This document shows positions 54,965 to 62,810 of a DNA stretch of 64,000 nucleotides, piece by piece. The stretch spans positions 186,001-250,000 of the forward strand of contig JAJEJU010000023.1 in assembly GCA_021390615.1 (NCBI GenBank), given 5' to 3'. The DNA is from Rhodanobacteraceae bacterium ZG21-1. GTDB taxonomy: Bacteria > Pseudomonadota > Gammaproteobacteria > Xanthomonadales > Rhodanobacteraceae. Within the stretch, counting starts at the first letter, position 1. Every line of letters starts with the position of its first letter. The notes beneath the pieces were generated by a model that saw only the letters and a list, made by a program, of their open reading frames with translations, was not told where the DNA came from and made no database searches. The translations under genes and the position numbers were made by a program.

Positions 54965-55031
54965 GCGCAGGCGCGCGGCGGCTGGCATGATGGTGGCGGC
55001 GCCGAACGCGCTGCCATCCCGAGGACACCGC

Positions 55032-55784
55032 TTGCCACCGCTCGTCTCAATCATCACGCCCACCTGGCAGCGCGAGCGCTTCCTGCCGGCGCTGGCGCGC
55101 TGCGTGCAGCGCCAGCGGGTGGACTGGGAATGGCTGGTGCTCGACGACAGCCCCGAACCCAGCGCGTGGATGCAGGAACTGGCTGCGCAGGACGCACGCG
55201 TGCGCTACTTCCATATGACCGAGCGCATGAGCATCGGCAGCAAGCGCAACCGGCTAATCGCCGAGGCGCGCGGCGAGCTGATCGCGCACTTCGACGACGA
55301 CGATCACTACGCCTCGCATTACCTGGAGGAGATGACCCGACTGCTGCGGGAACGCGGCGCGGACCTGATCAAGCTGTCCACCTTCTTCATGTATGCGCCG
55401 ACGACGGCCTTCTTCGGCTACATGGACCTGAATGCTCGGGTCGGCCAGCATTACGTGCTGACCGGCGGCGAGGTGAGCCAGGTGGCATTCCACGACAAGA
55501 TGCAGATCGGCGCCGACTTCATCCTGTTCTACGGCTTCTCCTACGTGTACCGCCGCAGCCTGTGCACGACTTCGCAGTTCGACGACATCGACCTCAACGA
55601 CGACGAAAGCTTCATCCGCCGCGTGGTGAGCGGCGGCCATCAGGTGATCGCCGCCGACGACAGCCGGCGCAGCTGCCTGCACCTGGTGCATCCCAACTCC
55701 ACCTCGCGTTGCTTCTCGCGCTATTCGATGCCGTTCTTCCTGCTGGCGCAGCTGTTCCCGGAGTACGAGGGCTATCCGGGCTGA
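55032..55784 (+). CDS. Family 2 glycosyltransferase
   Basis: About 250 residues of a GT-A fold. PPLVSIITPTWQRERFLPALARCV is the nucleotide-binding start, WLVLDDSPEP follows, and HFDDDDHYASHYLEEM carries the DxD-type metal site. I favour a TTG start at 55032 because GAGGA precedes it with good spacing and the protein then begins at the conserved LPPLVSIITPT. An ATG at 54987 is the alternative and would add 15 residues. The acceptor is unknown. A methyltransferase gene follows on the same strand 178 bp later. Confidence 0.82.
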   Translation: MPPLVSIITPTWQRERFLPALARCVQRQRVDWEWLVLDDSPEPSAWMQELAAQDARVRYFHMTERMSIGSKRNRLIAEARGELIAHFDDDDHYASHYLEEMTRLLRERGADLIKLSTFFMYAPTTAFFGYMDLNARVGQHYVLTGGEVSQVAFHDKMQIGADFILFYGFSYVYRRSLCTTSQFDDIDLNDDESFIRRVVSGGHQVIAADDSRRSCLHLVHPNSTSRCFSRYSMPFFLLAQLFPEYEGYPG

Positions 55785-55962
55785 GCACGCAGGCAGCACG
55801 AGCGAAGCGCGGGGCATCGATTTCTTCGGCAACCCCATGGGCGCTGCGCCTCGACTTGGCCGACATGCTCAAGCCAGTGCTCCGCAGCGCGCATGCGAGC
55901 GGTTGCCTCGGCATGGAAAAACTTCAATAGACTGGCAACCTCGCACACCACCGAGCCTGCCC

Positions 55963-56583
55963 ATGGACTTCCACTTCACCGTCGACTGGTTCCAGTCCAC
56001 CGCGCAGGCCACCTGGGACCAGTTGATCCCGCAGATCGACCCGACCCGGCTGCTGGAAGTGGGCTCCTACGAAGGCGCCAGCGCCTGCTACCTGGTCCAG
56101 CGCCTGGCCGCCACCAAACCGATCGAGCTGTATTGCGTGGACACCTGGGAAGGCGGCATCGAACACCAGGAGGCGACCATCGGCATGGCCGGCGTCGAAG
56201 CGCGCTTCGACCACAACCTCGGCGTCGCGCGCGCCGCGGTGGCGCATCCGGTCGAACTGGTCAAGCTGAAAGGGCGCAGCGACCTCGTGCTGGCAAGCCT
56301 GCTCGCCGAGGGCAAGGCGGGGCATTTCGACTTCGTCTACATCGACGGTTCGCATCAGGCGCCCGACGTGCTGTGCGACGCCGTGCTCGGCTTCCGTCTG
56401 CTGCGCGTGGGCGGCGTGCTGGTCTTCGACGACTATCTGTGGCACGAGCATGCGATTCCCGACAGCGATCCGCTGCGCTGCCCGAAACCGGCAATCGACG
56501 CCTTCGCCAATCTGTACTTCCGCAAGCTGAGCATCCTCCGCGCGCCGCTCTACCAGCTCTACGCGCAGAAGCTGAGCGACTGA
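55963..56583 (+). CDS. Class I SAM-dependent methyltransferase (Methyltransf_24 type)
   Basis: 206 residues. The SAM site is RLLEVGSYEGASACYLVQRL, followed by LYCVDTWEGGIEHQ, FDFVYIDGSHQAPDVLCDAVLGFRLLRVGGVLVFDDYLWH. This is the cephalosporin-hydroxylase/macrocin-O-methyltransferase-like group, often found with glycosyltransferases, as here. It probably methylates a sugar or small molecule in the cytoplasm (inference). The ATG at 55963 gives MDFHFTVDWFQ. Confidence 0.84.
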   Translation: MDFHFTVDWFQSTAQATWDQLIPQIDPTRLLEVGSYEGASACYLVQRLAATKPIELYCVDTWEGGIEHQEATIGMAGVEARFDHNLGVARAAVAHPVELVKLKGRSDLVLASLLAEGKAGHFDFVYIDGSHQAPDVLCDAVLGFRLLRVGGVLVFDDYLWHEHAIPDSDPLRCPKPAIDAFANLYFRKLSILRAPLYQLYAQKLSD

Positions 56584-56601: not shown

Positions 56602-57684
56602 TCAGCGCGCGGCGGAAGCCGATGCCGCCGGCACCGGCTCCGGCGTCAGGCCATCCGGCAAGTCCACGCGGTCGCCCTGGGCCTGCAGCCGCGCCAGATA
56701 ATTGTCCTTGCCCAGCAGCGACGACATCGGCAACAGGGCAAAGCTGACCCGGTTGGCCTCCAGCGCCTTGCCGGCCGCCGCCACCCAGGCGTCCTCGAGC
56801 CGCGCCGGCAGTGTCGCCGCCCCCAGCTCCTGCGCCACCCCGGAGGCGACCACCGCATCGCGGCAGGCCGCCATCTGGTCGCTCATCGGCAGCGCACGCA
56901 AGCCATCCAGGTCGCCCACCGCCCAGGCGTTCGCGCGGGCGCGCATCACCGCGATGTCGCCTTCCAGATGATCGAGCGTCTTGGCGAAGCAGTCGCGGTC
57001 GGCCAGCTCGCCGCGCTTGAAGTCCTTGACCAGGCCACGCGGGTTGTCGACCTCGATCAGGTACTCCACCGGCGTGGTCTTCAATCCCTGCTGCTTCAGC
57101 GCATGCTTGATGGTCGGCTCGATCACCTGATCGGACAGACCCGCCTGCTTGATCGCGGCGAGGTACAGGGCCAGCGCAGCGAAGATCGGGCGCTGCTTCT
57201 CCACGCCGCCGTCGCGGCCGAGATACTTGGCCTTCAGCACCAGCCACTTCGCGTAGTCCGTCGGCGGCACCACCTCGCGCAGCTTCTTGCCGTCCGGGTT
57301 GTTGCGCACGCCGATCAGCGAAGGCAGCAGCGCCAGCCCGCCGAAGAAGCCCAGGTGCGGATGCACGCCGACGGTAGGCGCAGCCAGCACCTGCTGCGCC
57401 TCGCCGAGGCGCGCCTGCACCTCCTGCGCGCGCCATTGCATCTTCTCCGGCAGCAGGGCGAGGGTGCCGAGCACCCACAGCACGTGGTCGCCCTTGCTCA
57501 CCTTCCACAGGCCGGGCCCGGGCTGCACGCCGCTCACCGTCACCGCCTGCAGCTCGATCGCGCCGGCCGGCGACGGTGGCGCACTGGCGCTGGCAGCTGG
57601 AGTCGGAGTCGGCGGCGGCTGCGCCATTGCAGGCAGCGCCAGCCACAGAGCGCACAACAGGCCTAATCGTCGATGTCTGCGCAT
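56602..57684 (-). CDS. TraB/GumN family secreted protein, paralog 1
   Basis: 360 residues. A signal peptide (1-22, LPAMA-QPP) and a Pro/Ala/Ser-rich linker precede the TraB/GumN domain. The family's first motif reads HVLWVLGTLALLPEKMQW: the metal-binding histidine of GTxH is replaced by alanine. Other shared blocks are KWLVLKAKYLGRDGGVEKQRPIFAALALY, CFAKTLDHLEGDIAVMRARANAWAVGDLDGL and VSFALLPMSSLLGKDNYLARLQAQGDRV. I use the ATG at 57684 (CGGAG precedes it); one 18 bases upstream is possible. It lies 20 bp after the next paralog's stop. Confidence 0.82.
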   Translation of the reverse strand: MRRHRRLGLLCALWLALPAMAQPPPTPTPAASASAPPSPAGAIELQAVTVSGVQPGPGLWKVSKGDHVLWVLGTLALLPEKMQWRAQEVQARLGEAQQVLAAPTVGVHPHLGFFGGLALLPSLIGVRNNPDGKKLREVVPPTDYAKWLVLKAKYLGRDGGVEKQRPIFAALALYLAAIKQAGLSDQVIEPTIKHALKQQGLKTTPVEYLIEVDNPRGLVKDFKRGELADRDCFAKTLDHLEGDIAVMRARANAWAVGDLDGLRALPMSDQMAACRDAVVASGVAQELGAATLPARLEDAWVAAAGKALEANRVSFALLPMSSLLGKDNYLARLQAQGDRVDLPDGLTPEPVPAASASAAR

Positions 57685-57704
57685 GCTGCTGCTCCGGCGC
57701 ATGC

Positions 57705-58706
57705 CTACGGCGCGTCGTTCGCGTCGACTGCGCCGAAGTCTTTCGGCGGCTCGATCCGATCGCCTTCGGCCTGCAGGGATTTCAGATAGCTGTCCGGGCC
57801 GAGCACATAGCCCATCGGCAACAGGGCGAAGCTCACCTTGTCGTCGTTCAAGGCCTTGCTCGCCGCGGCCACCCACAGCTCCCGGAACTTGCCGCGCAGC
57901 TCGTCGGCATCGAGCTTGTGCGCGATGCCCGATTCGGCGATCGCCGCGCGGCACACCTCCAGCTGATCGCTGGTCGGCAGCTTCTGCAGCTGGGTCAGGT
58001 CGCCGATGGACCAGGCATTGGCGCGCTCGCGCATCACCGTGACGTCTTCCTGCAGATGATCGAGGGTCTGCTCGAAGCAGCGCAGATTGTCGGCCTGGGT
58101 CAGGCCGGCATTCCTGAGCGGATCGGTGGGATCGCGCACTTCCGCGTGATAGTAGATGGGCGTCCATTTCGCATGGCTGTGTTCCCGCGCGTCCTGGATT
58201 ACCGGGCGGGTCACCTGCTCGGCCAAGTCGGCCTGCGCCAGCGCGGCAAGGTAGAGCTTGACCGCGGCGAAGATCGGGCGATAGCGCTCGACGTCATCGT
58301 CCTGGCCGAGATACTGCGCTTTCAGCGGCAGCCACTTCGCGTAGTCCTGTGCGGGCATCTGCTCGCGCAGCGACTTGCCGGAGGGATCGAGCGCCAGCCT
58401 GCCGTAGTAAGGCGCCTCGGCATGGAGGTGCACCGTGGGCGGACCCAGCACCTCCTGCGCCTGAGCGATGCGCTCGCGCACCTGGTGCGCCGACCACTGC
58501 ACGTGCGCCGGCAGTATCTCGAGCGTGCCGAGCACCCACAGCACGTGGTCGCCCCGGCTCACCTTCCACAAGCCCGGCCCCGGCACCACGCCGGTGACCG
58601 TCATCGTGCGCAGGGTGGCCACGTGTTCGGCCGCCGCCGGCCCGGCGCTCGACAAGACGCACGCCAGCAGCGCGCGAATCATCCACGACCTGCCCGATCC
58701 CTGCAT
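57705..58706 (-). CDS. TraB/GumN family secreted protein, paralog 2
   Basis: 333 residues. Signal peptide near 1-26 (SSAGPAAA-EHV), then VTGVVPGPGLWKVSRGDHVLWVLGTLEILPAHVQW. The GTxH histidine position is glutamate. Blocks shared with its neighbours are YAKWLPLKAQYLGQDDDVERYRPIFAAVKLYL, CFEQTLDHLQEDVTVMRERANAWSIGDL and VSFALLPMGYVLGPDSYLKSLQAEGDRIE. It probably shares a transcript with paralog 1. Function unknown; a periplasmic structural or inhibitory role is as likely as peptidase activity. Confidence 0.82.
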   Translation of the reverse strand: MQGSGRSWMIRALLACVLSSAGPAAAEHVATLRTMTVTGVVPGPGLWKVSRGDHVLWVLGTLEILPAHVQWSAHQVRERIAQAQEVLGPPTVHLHAEAPYYGRLALDPSGKSLREQMPAQDYAKWLPLKAQYLGQDDDVERYRPIFAAVKLYLAALAQADLAEQVTRPVIQDAREHSHAKWTPIYYHAEVRDPTDPLRNAGLTQADNLRCFEQTLDHLQEDVTVMRERANAWSIGDLTQLQKLPTSDQLEVCRAAIAESGIAHKLDADELRGKFRELWVAAASKALNDDKVSFALLPMGYVLGPDSYLKSLQAEGDRIEPPKDFGAVDANDAP

Positions 58707-59090
58707 AGCGGCTCCTGTCGATGCGGCGTAGCGATCCTACCCCGGCTCTTATATCGCAACGGCGCGGCGCTTGTCCTTACGCCTCACCGCCGGCTTGTCT
58801 GGCGTGCGATCCGCAGCGCCATGGGCATGCGCCAGGCAGGCACGGGCGCACCCGGATCGAACATGACATGGGCACTTCGATGCGCAACAGCCCTGCCGCC
58901 ACGAGACGACGCCATGACCCATCTGCGCGTGGATTGCCTCACTCGATAGATTGCCACGCATGGCCCACGCAACCGCCCTTGCCCACAACATGCCCTCGAT
59001 ATTCGAGCTCCGGCCTGCCCGCATCGCAGGGCGATCCAGCCGACGGCATGGAGCGGCGCCCTCGACCGCCCAGCTCAGCAGGACGAGGGC
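58707..59090. other. Intergenic region between TraB/GumN paralogs
   Basis: 384 bases with several short open frames on both strands but no recognisable protein, RNA gene or terminator. It presumably holds the promoter for paralogs 2 and 1. Confidence 0.4.
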
Positions 59091-60182
59091 TTATTGGGTG
59101 TTGGTGTTGGTGTTGGTGTTGGTATCGGTGGTGCCGGCGTCGCTATCGGCGTCCGGCGCTTCCACCTGATAGCCCTCGGCCTTCAACTTGCTGACGTAGC
59201 CGGTGGGCGACAACAGCTGCTGCATCGGCAGCACGGCGAAGCTCTGCGCATGATTCTGCAGGGCGGCGCGCGCCGCGCCCAGCCAGGTCGCCTCCAATTT
59301 GGCCGGCGCATCGGCCAGGCCCAGCTTCTGCGCGAAGCCCGCACCGGTCACCGCGCTGACGCAGGTACCGTGGCGATCGCTGTCCGGCAGCTTGCGCAAG
59401 GCTTCCAGGTCGCCGGTGGCCCAGGCGTTCGCGCGCGCGGTCATCGCCGGCATGTCCTGCTCGATGCTGTCCAGGGTGCGGCCGAAGCATTCCACGTCGT
59501 CCAGCCCGGAGCTCTTGAAGCTCTTGATCGCGTCGTGCGGGTGCTCGATCTTCAGCTGGTAGTCGGTGGACACCTCGTCCACGTGGTACTTCTTCGCCAG
59601 CGCGTCGACCGTATCCTCCACGCCGCCGGAATTGCTGAGGTCGTTGGCCTTGATCGCTTTCTTGTACAGCTGCTGCGCGGCGAAGATCGGCCGCCAGCGC
59701 TCGATGCCGCCATCCTTGCCCAGGTACTTCTGCTTCAGCACCAGCCAGCGCGCGTACATCGGCGCCGGCAGCACCTGCTGCAGGGTCTTGCCGTCGTCGT
59801 TCTTGCGCGCGCTGTAGGCGGAGGGCAGCAGGAACAGCTTGCCGAAAAAGCCGGTGTCGACCTGCAGCTTGATGGTCGGCTGCTGCAGCACCTGCTGGGA
59901 CTGGCCGATCACCTGCTCCAGATCGTGCGACTGCCACTGCATGCGCTGCGGCAACGGCGACAGCGTGCCGAGAATCCACATCACGTGGTCGCCCTTGCTG
60001 ACCTTCCACAGCCCCGGGCCCGGCTGCACGCCGCTGACCGTGATCGGCGCCAGGGTGGTCACGCTGGACGCGGCGGCCGGCATTGGCGCCGGGGTGCTGC
60101 CCGCGGCAGGCTGGGCGGTCTGGCAGAACGCAGGCGCGGCCGCGCACATCATCAGCACGAAAAGCGAGGTAGCCGGACGCAT
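59091..60182 (-). CDS. TraB/GumN family secreted protein, paralog 3
   Basis: 363 residues. Signal peptide (1-20, AAPAFC-QTA) and an Ala/Pro-rich linker, then ITVSGVQPGPGLWKVSKGDHVMWILGTLSPLPQRMQW, where the GTxH histidine is serine. Blocks YARWLVLKQKYLGKDGGIERWRPIFAAQQLY, CFGRTLDSIEQDMPAMTARANAWATGDLEAL and FAVLPMQQLLSPTGYVSKLKAEGYQVE follow the same order as in paralogs 1 and 2. The C terminus is an Asn-Thr repeat encoded by a 6-bp microsatellite. CAGGAA precedes the ATG at 60182. Confidence 0.84.
   Translation of the reverse strand: MRPATSLFVLMMCAAAPAFCQTAQPAAGSTPAPMPAAASSVTTLAPITVSGVQPGPGLWKVSKGDHVMWILGTLSPLPQRMQWQSHDLEQVIGQSQQVLQQPTIKLQVDTGFFGKLFLLPSAYSARKNDDGKTLQQVLPAPMYARWLVLKQKYLGKDGGIERWRPIFAAQQLYKKAIKANDLSNSGGVEDTVDALAKKYHVDEVSTDYQLKIEHPHDAIKSFKSSGLDDVECFGRTLDSIEQDMPAMTARANAWATGDLEALRKLPDSDRHGTCVSAVTGAGFAQKLGLADAPAKLEATWLGAARAALQNHAQSFAVLPMQQLLSPTGYVSKLKAEGYQVEAPDADSDAGTTDTNTNTNTNTQ
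59097..59120. repeat. (GGTGTT)4 microsatellite at the 3' end of TraB paralog 3
   Basis: Four perfect GGTGTT units encode Asn-Thr repeats immediately before the stop codon on the minus strand. A near-copy unit (GGTATC) follows. Because the unit is 6 bp, slippage changes length without breaking the frame. Confidence 0.8.
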
Positions 60183-60307: not shown

Positions 60308-62587
60308 TCAATACAGCAGGCGAATCGCGCGGGCACGCTCCGCGCCTCGCAGCCCGGCATTGGCCGGCGTCGGGCCGTCGCCCAGCAGATAGTCGAGCGC
60401 CCGATGCCCCTTGGTATCGGCCTGCCAGGGATCGGCGCCGGCATGCAGCAGCAATGCGATCAGTTTCAGCGAGCCATGTGCCGCGGCATACATCAACGGC
60501 GTGCGGCCATCGTCGCCGAGCACGATATTCGAAACCAGATCTTCGCCCGCCCAAGTCGTGGCATTGACCTTCGCCCCGTGCGCCAGCAGGAAGGACACGC
60601 TTTGCAGCTGATCGAACTGGGCCGCCTGCATCAGCGCGGTCTTGCCGATCTTGTTGCGCACATCGACCTCCGGCTGTTGCTGCAAGATCAGCGGCAACAA
60701 CCTGGGCCGACGGACCGCCACCAGCAGCAGCGGATCCATGCCTGCATTGCGAGCACAATCCTTGAGCTCGCTGGATTCGTCGCCACCCTTCGACAATTTT
60801 TCCGCGATCTCGGCGGCGGGCGCCTGTTCCAGGATCATCCGGCGCAATGAATCCGTCGGCAGCTTGCCGCCGCACTGGGGGCCGAACACCACGGCAAACA
60901 AGGCGTTCTTAGCCGCGCGCATGCCGTCGTCATGCGACAAGCCCCAGCGGGCGTAGTAGGCCGCGAGCTGGCGTTGCGCCTGCCGATATTTTCCGCGCAG
61001 CTGCTGGGCGACCTCGTAGTTGCCGAGGCTGGTATAGCCCCAGATCTGATAGGGATAGGCAAAAGTCGGCTCCTGCTTCGTCAGGAACGAGCGCGGGTCG
61101 ACCTGCATGGCGGCGTAGATGGCGTTCTGGCTTGCCCCCAGGCCGTATTTCAGGCTGCCCTGGAAGTTGTTGATGAAGTCGCCGTCTGCGGCAGTGGAGG
61201 CTGCTTTGAATGCGTTGACCGCGGCCTGGGGGAATCCGCGCGCACTGCCGCGTTCCCCATTGCAACCCGGACGTGGCAGGAAATTATCCCGATTGCTGCC
61301 GTATTGAGCCTGGGTCGCAGCCACCAGTGCGGGCCGCGCCAACAACACCGCGCACGGAATCGAGTAGTAGGCAGAGCTGCTGTTCGCAGCGCCGGTCTGC
61401 GAGGCTTGAATGATGGTGTTCAGCAGCGACCGGTCGGTGCCGTCGTAGCGCTGCGGCGGAAACTCGCTTTGAGCCAGCGGTCCGCCACCGTTCCATTTTT
61501 GCTGCGCCTGCTCCAGGACTTCCGCCAACAGACTCTGGATAAGCGCATTGCGGCGGGCGCCAACGGGGCGGAACGCATGCAGGAACAACGCATAGTCCAG
61601 CTTGCCCAGGGTGTCCTGATGGGAGGCCCGTTCGAGTACGGGCGCGGCCTTGCCTGGGTTGCGGCCCATGTTGGCGATGGCGGTAGCGCGATTCCACGGA
61701 CCGGTCGGCGGCGGCTCTATGCCCGAACTATCCTTGGGCAATACTCGGGCGATCGTGCGTGGCTTGAAACGATCCGGATGCTTCGCCGATTGTTCCAGGG
61801 TCACGTAATCCAGCGTTTCATTGCCTGCGGACGGACACGACAGTTGCGGCCCCAACAGGCGCGCAAGCACCGCCCTCGCCTGCTCGAACTGCTCGGTCCG
61901 GCCGATCACCGTGCGGCAAGGCAGGCGCAGCCAGGTATCGCTGAGCTGCGATGGCGCATACGACCAGCCCAAACTCAGCTTCCGATCCGGCATGCCGCCG
62001 CCGGCCAAGGTACCTCTCGACATCTGCCTGTTCAAAGCGGCGTCGGCCATGCGCAGGCCCGCGAACAAGCGCAGCAACGGTTGCGGGCTATTCGCCGTAG
62101 CCGCGAGCACGGCGTCGTAGTCGTGCTTGTCCTGATTCAGGGTCTTCCGGGGAATCGCCCCAGCAGACGAAGCTGGCTTTGCCATCACCACCGCGGTAAT
62201 TACCGACAGCGATGCATCCATGGCCCGGTCATCGTTTGCGAGAAAGGCGGCATAGGCATCCACCAAAGCCTCCATGGGATGCCGCGTCGCGCCCTCTGGC
62301 ACCGGCCAGCGCGGCTGGCCCGCGGCTAGCCGTTCCATATCGGACTGTATCCGCGCCAGCGTCTGGCGCGGGTCGCCGTATTCCTTCGGATGATCCACTT
62401 CGATGACGACATGGCGAGGGACAGATCCCGCCGAAGCCGGCACGGCGCCGTAAACCGACGCGCTTGCCACGTGCAGACTGAGGCTTGCCAGCATGAGCAG
62501 ACATGCTTCGCGACGACAGCCACGCGTCTGCTCGCTTCCGTGACCTGACCGCGCCTTGCGGGCCAAGCCCGACCGATTCGATGCCAT
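60308..62587 (-). CDS. Secreted ankyrin-repeat protein of unknown function
   Basis: 759 residues. A long N-terminal region with a hydrophobic signal-like segment (LLMLASLSLHVASASVYGAV) leads into about 500 residues without a recognised domain but helical in character (EQFEQARAVLARLLGPQLSC, YEVAQQLRGKYRQAQRQLAAYYARWG). The last 120 residues hold ankyrin repeats: GKTALMQAAQFDQLQSVSFLLAHGAKVN, GRTPLMYAAAHGSLKLIALLLHAGADP, KGHRALDYLLGDG. Three or four repeats suit a protein-binding role. The ATG at 62587 is preceded by GTAGGA. It lies 125 bp upstream of TraB paralog 3 on the same strand. Confidence 0.75.
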   Translation of the reverse strand: MASNRSGLARKARSGHGSEQTRGCRREACLLMLASLSLHVASASVYGAVPASAGSVPRHVVIEVDHPKEYGDPRQTLARIQSDMERLAAGQPRWPVPEGATRHPMEALVDAYAAFLANDDRAMDASLSVITAVVMAKPASSAGAIPRKTLNQDKHDYDAVLAATANSPQPLLRLFAGLRMADAALNRQMSRGTLAGGGMPDRKLSLGWSYAPSQLSDTWLRLPCRTVIGRTEQFEQARAVLARLLGPQLSCPSAGNETLDYVTLEQSAKHPDRFKPRTIARVLPKDSSGIEPPPTGPWNRATAIANMGRNPGKAAPVLERASHQDTLGKLDYALFLHAFRPVGARRNALIQSLLAEVLEQAQQKWNGGGPLAQSEFPPQRYDGTDRSLLNTIIQASQTGAANSSSAYYSIPCAVLLARPALVAATQAQYGSNRDNFLPRPGCNGERGSARGFPQAAVNAFKAASTAADGDFINNFQGSLKYGLGASQNAIYAAMQVDPRSFLTKQEPTFAYPYQIWGYTSLGNYEVAQQLRGKYRQAQRQLAAYYARWGLSHDDGMRAAKNALFAVVFGPQCGGKLPTDSLRRMILEQAPAAEIAEKLSKGGDESSELKDCARNAGMDPLLLVAVRRPRLLPLILQQQPEVDVRNKIGKTALMQAAQFDQLQSVSFLLAHGAKVNATTWAGEDLVSNIVLGDDGRTPLMYAAAHGSLKLIALLLHAGADPWQADTKGHRALDYLLGDGPTPANAGLRGAERARAIRLLY

Positions 62588-62810
62588 TCCTACGCCCCCC
62601 AACTGCTCTGGCGAGCAGTCACTGAGCGCATTATCGACAGCTCCAGCGGATCAATGATGGCGATTCGGCGCAGGCTGGCGTCAATTGCCGGGCAGCTTGT
62701 TGCCGATTCGTGGCGAGGCGACGAACCGTGCCTGCGCGCTCGGTGCCGACGTCATCGACCCGCACGGCAGCCGGCCAAGCACCATCGCGACAAGGCTTGG
62801 ATGCGGCCCA

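Follow-up and report, generated by a model that had tools for sequence, protein, structure and literature searches.

On its minus strand, a 64,000-nucleotide stretch of the genome of Rhodanobacteraceae bacterium ZG21-1 (contig JAJEJU010000023.1, positions 186,001 to 250,000; hereafter the window) holds at positions 56602–60182 three consecutive open reading frames (ORFs) for proteins of the TraB/PrgY/GumN family. These proteins, here named copies A, B and C, have, judging by their sequences, very probably become pseudoenzymes at the TraB site, and each carries an octamer resembling a TonB box ahead of its family domain. The reading of the whole, in which the copies would be non-catalytic periplasmic TraB-fold binding proteins docked to TonB, is given about an even chance; the loss of the active site appears well supported by the alignments, and binding of TonB through the octamer is a proposal with a chance just short of even.

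The preliminary description of this region had placed three adjacent TraB/GumN paralogues here, which is borne out by the ORFs and by matches of all three to PF01963 (TraB/PrgY/GumN; E 2.7e-22 to 2.5e-28, 80–100 bits against a curated cut-off of 26.8). Copies A and B are separated by 384 nt, and B and C by 2 nt (from the stop of B to the ATG at 57702). Copy B shares 50% identity with C and 41% with A, and third-position GC values of 0.93, 0.88 and 0.89 for A, B and C fit real genes in a GC-rich genome. By eye, all three N-termini look like Sec signal peptides, which in A and C are followed by an Ala/Pro-rich linker. No Plug or beta-barrel domain was detected in the copies, Pfam at E up to 0.1 returning only PF01963 and, for copy C, one additional sub-threshold match to an unrelated family; NCBIfam gave no match to the copies at the same limit. 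Scans for promoters and terminators had a yield no higher than in shuffled sequences. Beyond the triplet, the genome encodes two more PF01963 proteins, namely P0004 (291 aa), which has a signal-like N-terminus and all TraB motifs, and a protein of 411 aa of the TraB/PrgY type.

Loss of the TraB active site

In a tree of 94 rows the GumN clade, to which the three copies belong, separates from the P0004-type proteins with support of 100/100 (88 and 6 rows, respectively), and all 77 members of the clade alignment match PF01963 at E 0.001 or better. The earlier observation that the histidine of the GTxH motif is missing from the copies holds for the clade at large: the motif reads GTLS in A, GTLE in B and GTLA in C, and no histidine occupies the column in 107 non-redundant members (108 less one duplicate of copy A), which carry Ser (88), Thr (9), Ala (5), Glu (2), Asp (2) or Pro (1). 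Furthermore, neither GTxH nor G[ASTVG]GH was found anywhere in 130 non-redundant clade sequences (from 146), the three of the window included. The active site of TraB/TIKI peptidases consists of 2His/2Glu plus a basic residue (PMC6254334), and the erosion goes beyond what had been described, as the second histidine motif and the Glu and Arg positions are also lost or variable. The columns aligned with the two catalytic Glu residues and the conserved Arg of these peptidases vary; copy A does have Glu at one of these positions, where it is not conserved, and a basic residue is offset from the Arg by one position. Across the 77 sequences the former catalytic columns are variable, with no fixed substitute residue. 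P0004-type paralogues of the same bacterial family served as controls (29 distinct proteins, chosen by similarity to P0004; one of 30 loci gave none, its frame containing a stop), and all 29 retain GTxH, the Glu residues of YLE and GLE, the Arg of DRN, and GAGH, the Asn of DRN being replaced by Asp in one of them. In a profile-profile alignment of GumN with the P0004 type (E 6.7e-13), GAGH falls opposite PMQQ of copy A.

It had been considered that another histidine might complete the metal site, and none appears to do so: the only highly conserved histidine, H66 (99% of the 77 sequences), opens strand 1, and position 75, that of GTxH, comes directly after the end of that strand. A pair of Cys residues is present in 77/77 clade sequences, and no Cys occurs beyond residue 25 in 29/29 P0004-type proteins. 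Of the other conserved motifs of the domain, only W..GD is common to the P0004 type; RANAW and PGPGLW are signatures of the GumN clade and not general TraB features.

AlphaFold2 models of copies A and B have a mean predicted local distance difference test score (pLDDT) of 83.2 and 83.7, with 227/363 and 195/333 residues, respectively, at 90 or more, while residues 40–54 of copy A, the stretch of the octamer, score under 50. In VIA-align the best match of both models was a chain of Tetrahymena complex IV (Z 8.3 with 213 residues aligned at 5.2 Å, and Z 8.6 with 215 at 5.9 Å). PMC10060162 lists a TraB-family protein among the accessory subunits of that complex, and the matched chain is probably this subunit. 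Structures of the TIKI/Ere superfamily recur at Z 4.1–5.4; however, methyltransferases and phosphatases reach 5–6.7 in the same lists, and since unrelated folds score as high, these matches add little beyond the Pfam match. Foldseek alone returned nothing at E 0.001 or better, and sequence searches of solved structures that used the P0004 protein, the TraB/PrgY-type protein and profiles of the clade turned up no relative; what little they returned, at E 0.4 or worse, is unrelated.

A TonB-box-like octamer ahead of the domain

Between the signal peptide or linker and the domain of each copy lies an octamer (Table 1) that the preliminary description does not mention. In 74 of the 77 clade members it is anchored, ending two residues before PGP, and takes 37 distinct forms, among them LEAVTVSG, LQAVTVTG and LDTVVVTG; the three sequences without the PGP anchor were left out of the octamer comparison. 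V49 and G51 are invariant in the 77 sequences, and the mean column entropy of the octamer (1.06) is lower than that of the domain (1.38) and of the signal peptide and linker (2.26). The octamer resembles a TonB box in its sequence, in its place after the signal peptide (and the Ala/Pro linker in A and C) and in a spelling that depends on the lineage.

With regard to sequence, the genome of the window yields 51 Plug matches, and the 30 receptors fetched from these carry LQAVTVTG, LEAVTVTG, LDTVVVTG and similar octamers ahead of the Plug domain. The pattern L..[VI].V[TS][GA] occurs in 25/30 receptors and 44/77 GumN N-termini, as against 0/29 P0004-type controls and 2/783 neighbour proteins, both of the latter being receptor-like by eye. 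When M was allowed in the pattern, 6 matches were found in 684 ORFs of the window's genome (40 stretches plus the window): two receptor-like ORFs, copy B, a short ORF, a MurE-like ORF with the match in mid-protein, and a short membrane-type ORF. This set excludes ORFs cut by the ends of stretches and lacks copies A and C, in whose place shadow frames on the plus strand were chosen. A position-specific scoring matrix built from the 25 distinct boxes of the 30 fetched receptors assigned a score of 8 or more to 70/77 GumN N-termini, compared with 1.6% of shuffled GumN N-termini.

The spelling was assessed by a likelihood ratio that contrasts the receptors of the window's genome with those of three genomes outside the class and that, in leave-one-out classification of receptors, was correct in 23/24 and 18/20 cases. 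On this measure 33 of the 37 distinct GumN boxes fall on the side of the receptor style of the window's genome. For distant homologues, five boxes fit the receptors of their own genomes (-7.0, -7.0, -7.0, -1.5 and -1.2), two of them weakly, and the one at -1.2 is probably out of register; L149, from the same class outside the order, scores +1.3. The open-access literature searched contained no paper linking a TonB box with GumN, and none treating TraB, GumN and Tiki together. A soluble client of TonB is not far-fetched, given that PMC7593965 reports that FusB, a TonB-like protein, is in direct contact with the soluble substrate ferredoxin.

Table 1. Window coordinates of the three GumN-type genes and of their octamers and lost motifs
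Feature	Position	Strand	Description	Basis
Copy A	59091..60182	minus	main-line GumN orthologue, 363 aa, GTLS	ORF, PF01963 match, tree
Copy B	57705..58706	minus	second-type, fast-evolving GumN paralogue, 333 aa, GTLE	ORF, PF01963 match, tree
Copy C	56602..57702	minus	second-type GumN paralogue, GTLA; ATG at 57702 or in-frame ATG at 57684	ORF, PF01963 match, tree
Octamer of copy A	60030..60053	minus	LAPITVSG, residues 44-51	coordinates from residue numbers
Octamer of copy B	58590..58613	minus	LRTMTVTG, residues 32-39	sequence
Octamer of copy C	57529..57552	minus	LQAVTVSG, residues 45-52 from ATG 57684	sequence
GTLS of copy A	59958..59969	minus	in GTxH place	alignment
PMQQ of copy A	59217..59228	minus	in GAGH place	hhalign profile alignment

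Phylogeny and gene neighbourhood of the GumN clade

Copy A groups with the main-line copies of Rhodanobacter (5 rows, 100/98), and copies B and C form a second type (6 rows, 100/100) that also occurs in tandem in four Rhodanobacter loci; B is the sister of C (100/91) with an end branch of 0.99. As the loss of the motifs is common to the whole clade, it is older than the duplications, and it is likewise seen in the single-copy GumN of Xanthomonas and in distant homologues outside the class. The earlier proposal of a subfamily that kept the fold, lost the protease and expanded by duplication is thus upheld for the predicted fold and the loss of the site; the loss is not tied to the expansion, the duplications being later and local.

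Searches found a clade match in 184 of the family's 233 genomes and in 62/151, 4/369 and 10/398 sampled genomes of the order, class and phylum, respectively, the samples of the four ranks overlapping in the window's own kin. Homologues from outside the class (one each in L211, L213 and L215 and two in L212) score 69–121 bits with the GumN profile compared with 8–34 with the P0004 profile. Both histidine motifs are missing from their domains (a G.[GA]H match in L215 is located well before the domain), and the Cys pair, about 40 residues apart, is retained. Neighbouring GumN-like genes in pairs were also observed in one genome of the same class outside the order (L210/L214) and in one outside the class (L212). 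The ratio of nonsynonymous to synonymous substitution rates (dN/dS) is 0.077–0.233 in 15 pairs of GumN orthologues, 0.27 between copy A and its counterpart in L006, and 0.63 between B and C. The low values among orthologues indicate purifying selection and hence a maintained clade of pseudoenzymes.

Synteny together with phylogeny shows the three copies to be orthologous to GumN itself, the protein after which the family is named and whose gene closes the xanthan cluster of Xanthomonas. In the Xanthomonas locus L016, Pfam identifies in order GumK_N, a polysaccharide pyruvyl transferase, a WecG-type gene, Cupin_5, a single clade gene and a FabH-like gene, and gene clustering gave the same neighbours for other Xanthomonas loci; passages of PMC2585010 and PMC4468381 give the published order as gumM-ORF-gumN-gumO. 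Of the 81 stretches that were compared (80 named loci and the window), 25 have the GumM-like cluster; the ORF caller behind the clustering is crude and missed the clade gene in L035 and L045. Gum-type genes were additionally seen beside gumN in two Stenotrophomonas loci, L036 and L044. In Lysobacter and Pseudoxanthomonas loci devoid of gum genes, the clade gene follows pheT, ihfA, merR, a tRNA-Pro and in some cases a cupin, and has dxs downstream of it (genes named from sequence); in L064 only merR was recognised of the pheT/ihfA/merR set. A tRNA-Pro(GGG) lies upstream of gumN in 6/6 such loci scanned (L043, L058, L062, L064, L079 and L080), and according to PMC4468381 gumB closely follows a tRNA-Pro. 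From these two positions it follows that the gum genes probably entered at the tRNA-Pro, beside a resident gumN, in which case gumN would be a gum gene by position only.

The usual neighbours in Rhodanobacter and Dyella are a monomeric isocitrate dehydrogenase (in 33/81 stretches including the window; confirmed by Pfam for one), an aldo-keto reductase and a LysR-type regulator; these are retained in the window, where further genes have been inserted. Between the dehydrogenase and copy A lies a gene for a 764-aa protein (60308–62602, minus strand) whose ankyrin repeats are confined to the C-terminal end (starting at about residue 629), and in many related loci the GumN gene stands beside the dehydrogenase or has one or two other genes between. 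On the other side, a glycosyltransferase-like gene (by eye) and a methyltransferase gene (54987–56583, plus strand) are convergent with copy C, 18 nt separating the latter from the end of the methyltransferase gene. Locus L057, on a contig titled Candidatus Eremiobacteraeota, goes with Dyella in both tree and gene order and is probably mis-binned.

Proposed function, alternatives and known systems

In the favoured explanation, proteins of the GumN clade would be exported to the periplasm, a location suggested by their signal peptides as identified by eye. Their TraB-fold domain, devoid of the catalytic and metal-binding positions and perhaps stabilised by the clade-specific Cys pair as a disulphide, would be preserved under selection as a binding module. 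The octamer would add as a strand to the C-terminal domain of TonB, making GumN a soluble client or adaptor that places a ligand-binding domain at the TonB/ExbBD complex, with an output that might be either the rationing of TonB among many receptors or the passing of its pull to a partner. In ZG21-1 the module would have been multiplied into the main-line copy A and the diverging copies B and C, probably with different ligands. The broader form of this explanation is put forward tentatively: GumN may head a clade of soluble periplasmic pseudoenzymes, spread among Xanthomonadales and a few other Proteobacteria, that have a genuine TonB box and couple a dead TraB-fold binding domain to the force of TonB/ExbBD or compete with the receptors for TonB.

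Several observations weigh against the proposed docking to TonB or the loss of catalysis. A score of 8 or more is also reached by 34/783 neighbour proteins, 33/77 GumN N-termini miss the tight pattern and 5/77 score under 6, and owing to kinship among the sequences such counts are not independent. The base rates in the two background sets are rough because of a crude ORF caller, which within the window took shadow frames on the plus strand in place of copies A and C. The commonest Xanthomonas form of the octamer, LEAMVVRG (19/74), fits less well the TonB-box consensus of Xanthomonas campestris receptors, which a passage of PMC1790865 gives as tLDXVXV. The octamer might simply be an edge strand of the usual kind: in the model of copy B it lies in block 31–40, whose pLDDT averages 68, and there is a strand at 39–41. 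As for catalysis, E213 and H214 of copy A lie near the lost GLE site, though they are conserved in only 31/77 and 14/77 sequences and are R-D in B and D-N in C, and a basic residue precedes the conserved Trp by 5 positions, compared with 4 for the Arg of P0004-type proteins. Additionally, three Xanthomonas strains carry a disrupted gumN (PMC3826837), and X. fragariae is reported to have none (PMC4408752).

The edge strand is part of an alternative that we regard as possible, if on the doubtful side, in which the copies are likewise pseudoenzyme binding proteins, acting as a periplasmic TraB-fold scaffold or peptide binder without contact to TonB, and the octamer is a mere conserved linker or strand. 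It accommodates the motif loss and the purifying selection, and the complex IV match would set a precedent for a structural role if the chain is the TraB-family subunit, although Z values near 8 may reflect only a common arrangement. It leaves unexplained the match of the octamer to receptor boxes, its lineage-dependent spelling and its absence from the P0004 type. It is improbable that the copies are enzymes with a site relocated among K60, H66, Y143, K150, Y153, E161, R164, D243, R250, N252 and D258: the 77 sequences share 26 invariant columns and many conserved polar residues, but according to predicted secondary structure the polar set is scattered, its members lying in several helices and at the beginning of strand 1.

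A regulatory partnership with the motif-bearing P0004-type paralogue, as in a pseudoprotease-protease pair, would suit the presence of both types in the window's genome but is judged very unlikely, as 16 genomes, picked as GumN-positive without a P0004-type match, all retain GumN. In 15 of them there is at least one additional PF01963 hit, TraB/PrgY-like by place in the profile and open-frame length. The slightest probability is given to a decaying gene family without function. The independent disruptions in Xanthomonas and the absence from X. fragariae mentioned above would agree with decay, as would the long branch of copy B and the dN/dS of 0.63 between B and C, but the dN/dS values of the orthologue pairs and the presence of the clade throughout most of the family speak against it.

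The name of the family in genome annotation derives in part from GumN, which itself lacks the family's active site, so that the label 'peptidase' is misleading for proteins of the GumN clade. If the TonB box works, these proteins would constitute a new class of soluble TonB clients in a setting where many receptors compete for TonB, and gumN, whose role in xanthan synthesis is called not demonstrated in passages of PMC2585010 and PMC3826837, would gain a testable role outside that pathway.

Compared with known systems, the copies share with the TraB/TIKI peptidases (PF01963; Tiki, PrgY) the Pfam match and the predicted fold, but differ in lacking GTxH, GAGH and fixed Glu and Arg residues at the aligned places. 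The chain that the models of A and B match best, probably the TraB-family subunit of Tetrahymena complex IV, differs in being a mitochondrial component of a eukaryotic complex. GumN of the Xanthomonas gum cluster belongs to the orthologous clade, with the published gene order matched in L016, whereas the window has three copies and no gum-type neighbours, the triplet being flanked by isocitrate dehydrogenase and ankyrin genes on one side and methyltransferase and glycosyltransferase genes on the other. With TonB-dependent receptors the copies have in common a signal peptide, an Ala/Pro-rich linker (A and C) and a TonB-box-like octamer before the first domain; unlike these receptors they carry a TraB-fold domain, with no Plug or barrel by Pfam. 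Soluble clients as proposed here would therefore be neither outer-membrane receptors nor bacteriocins.

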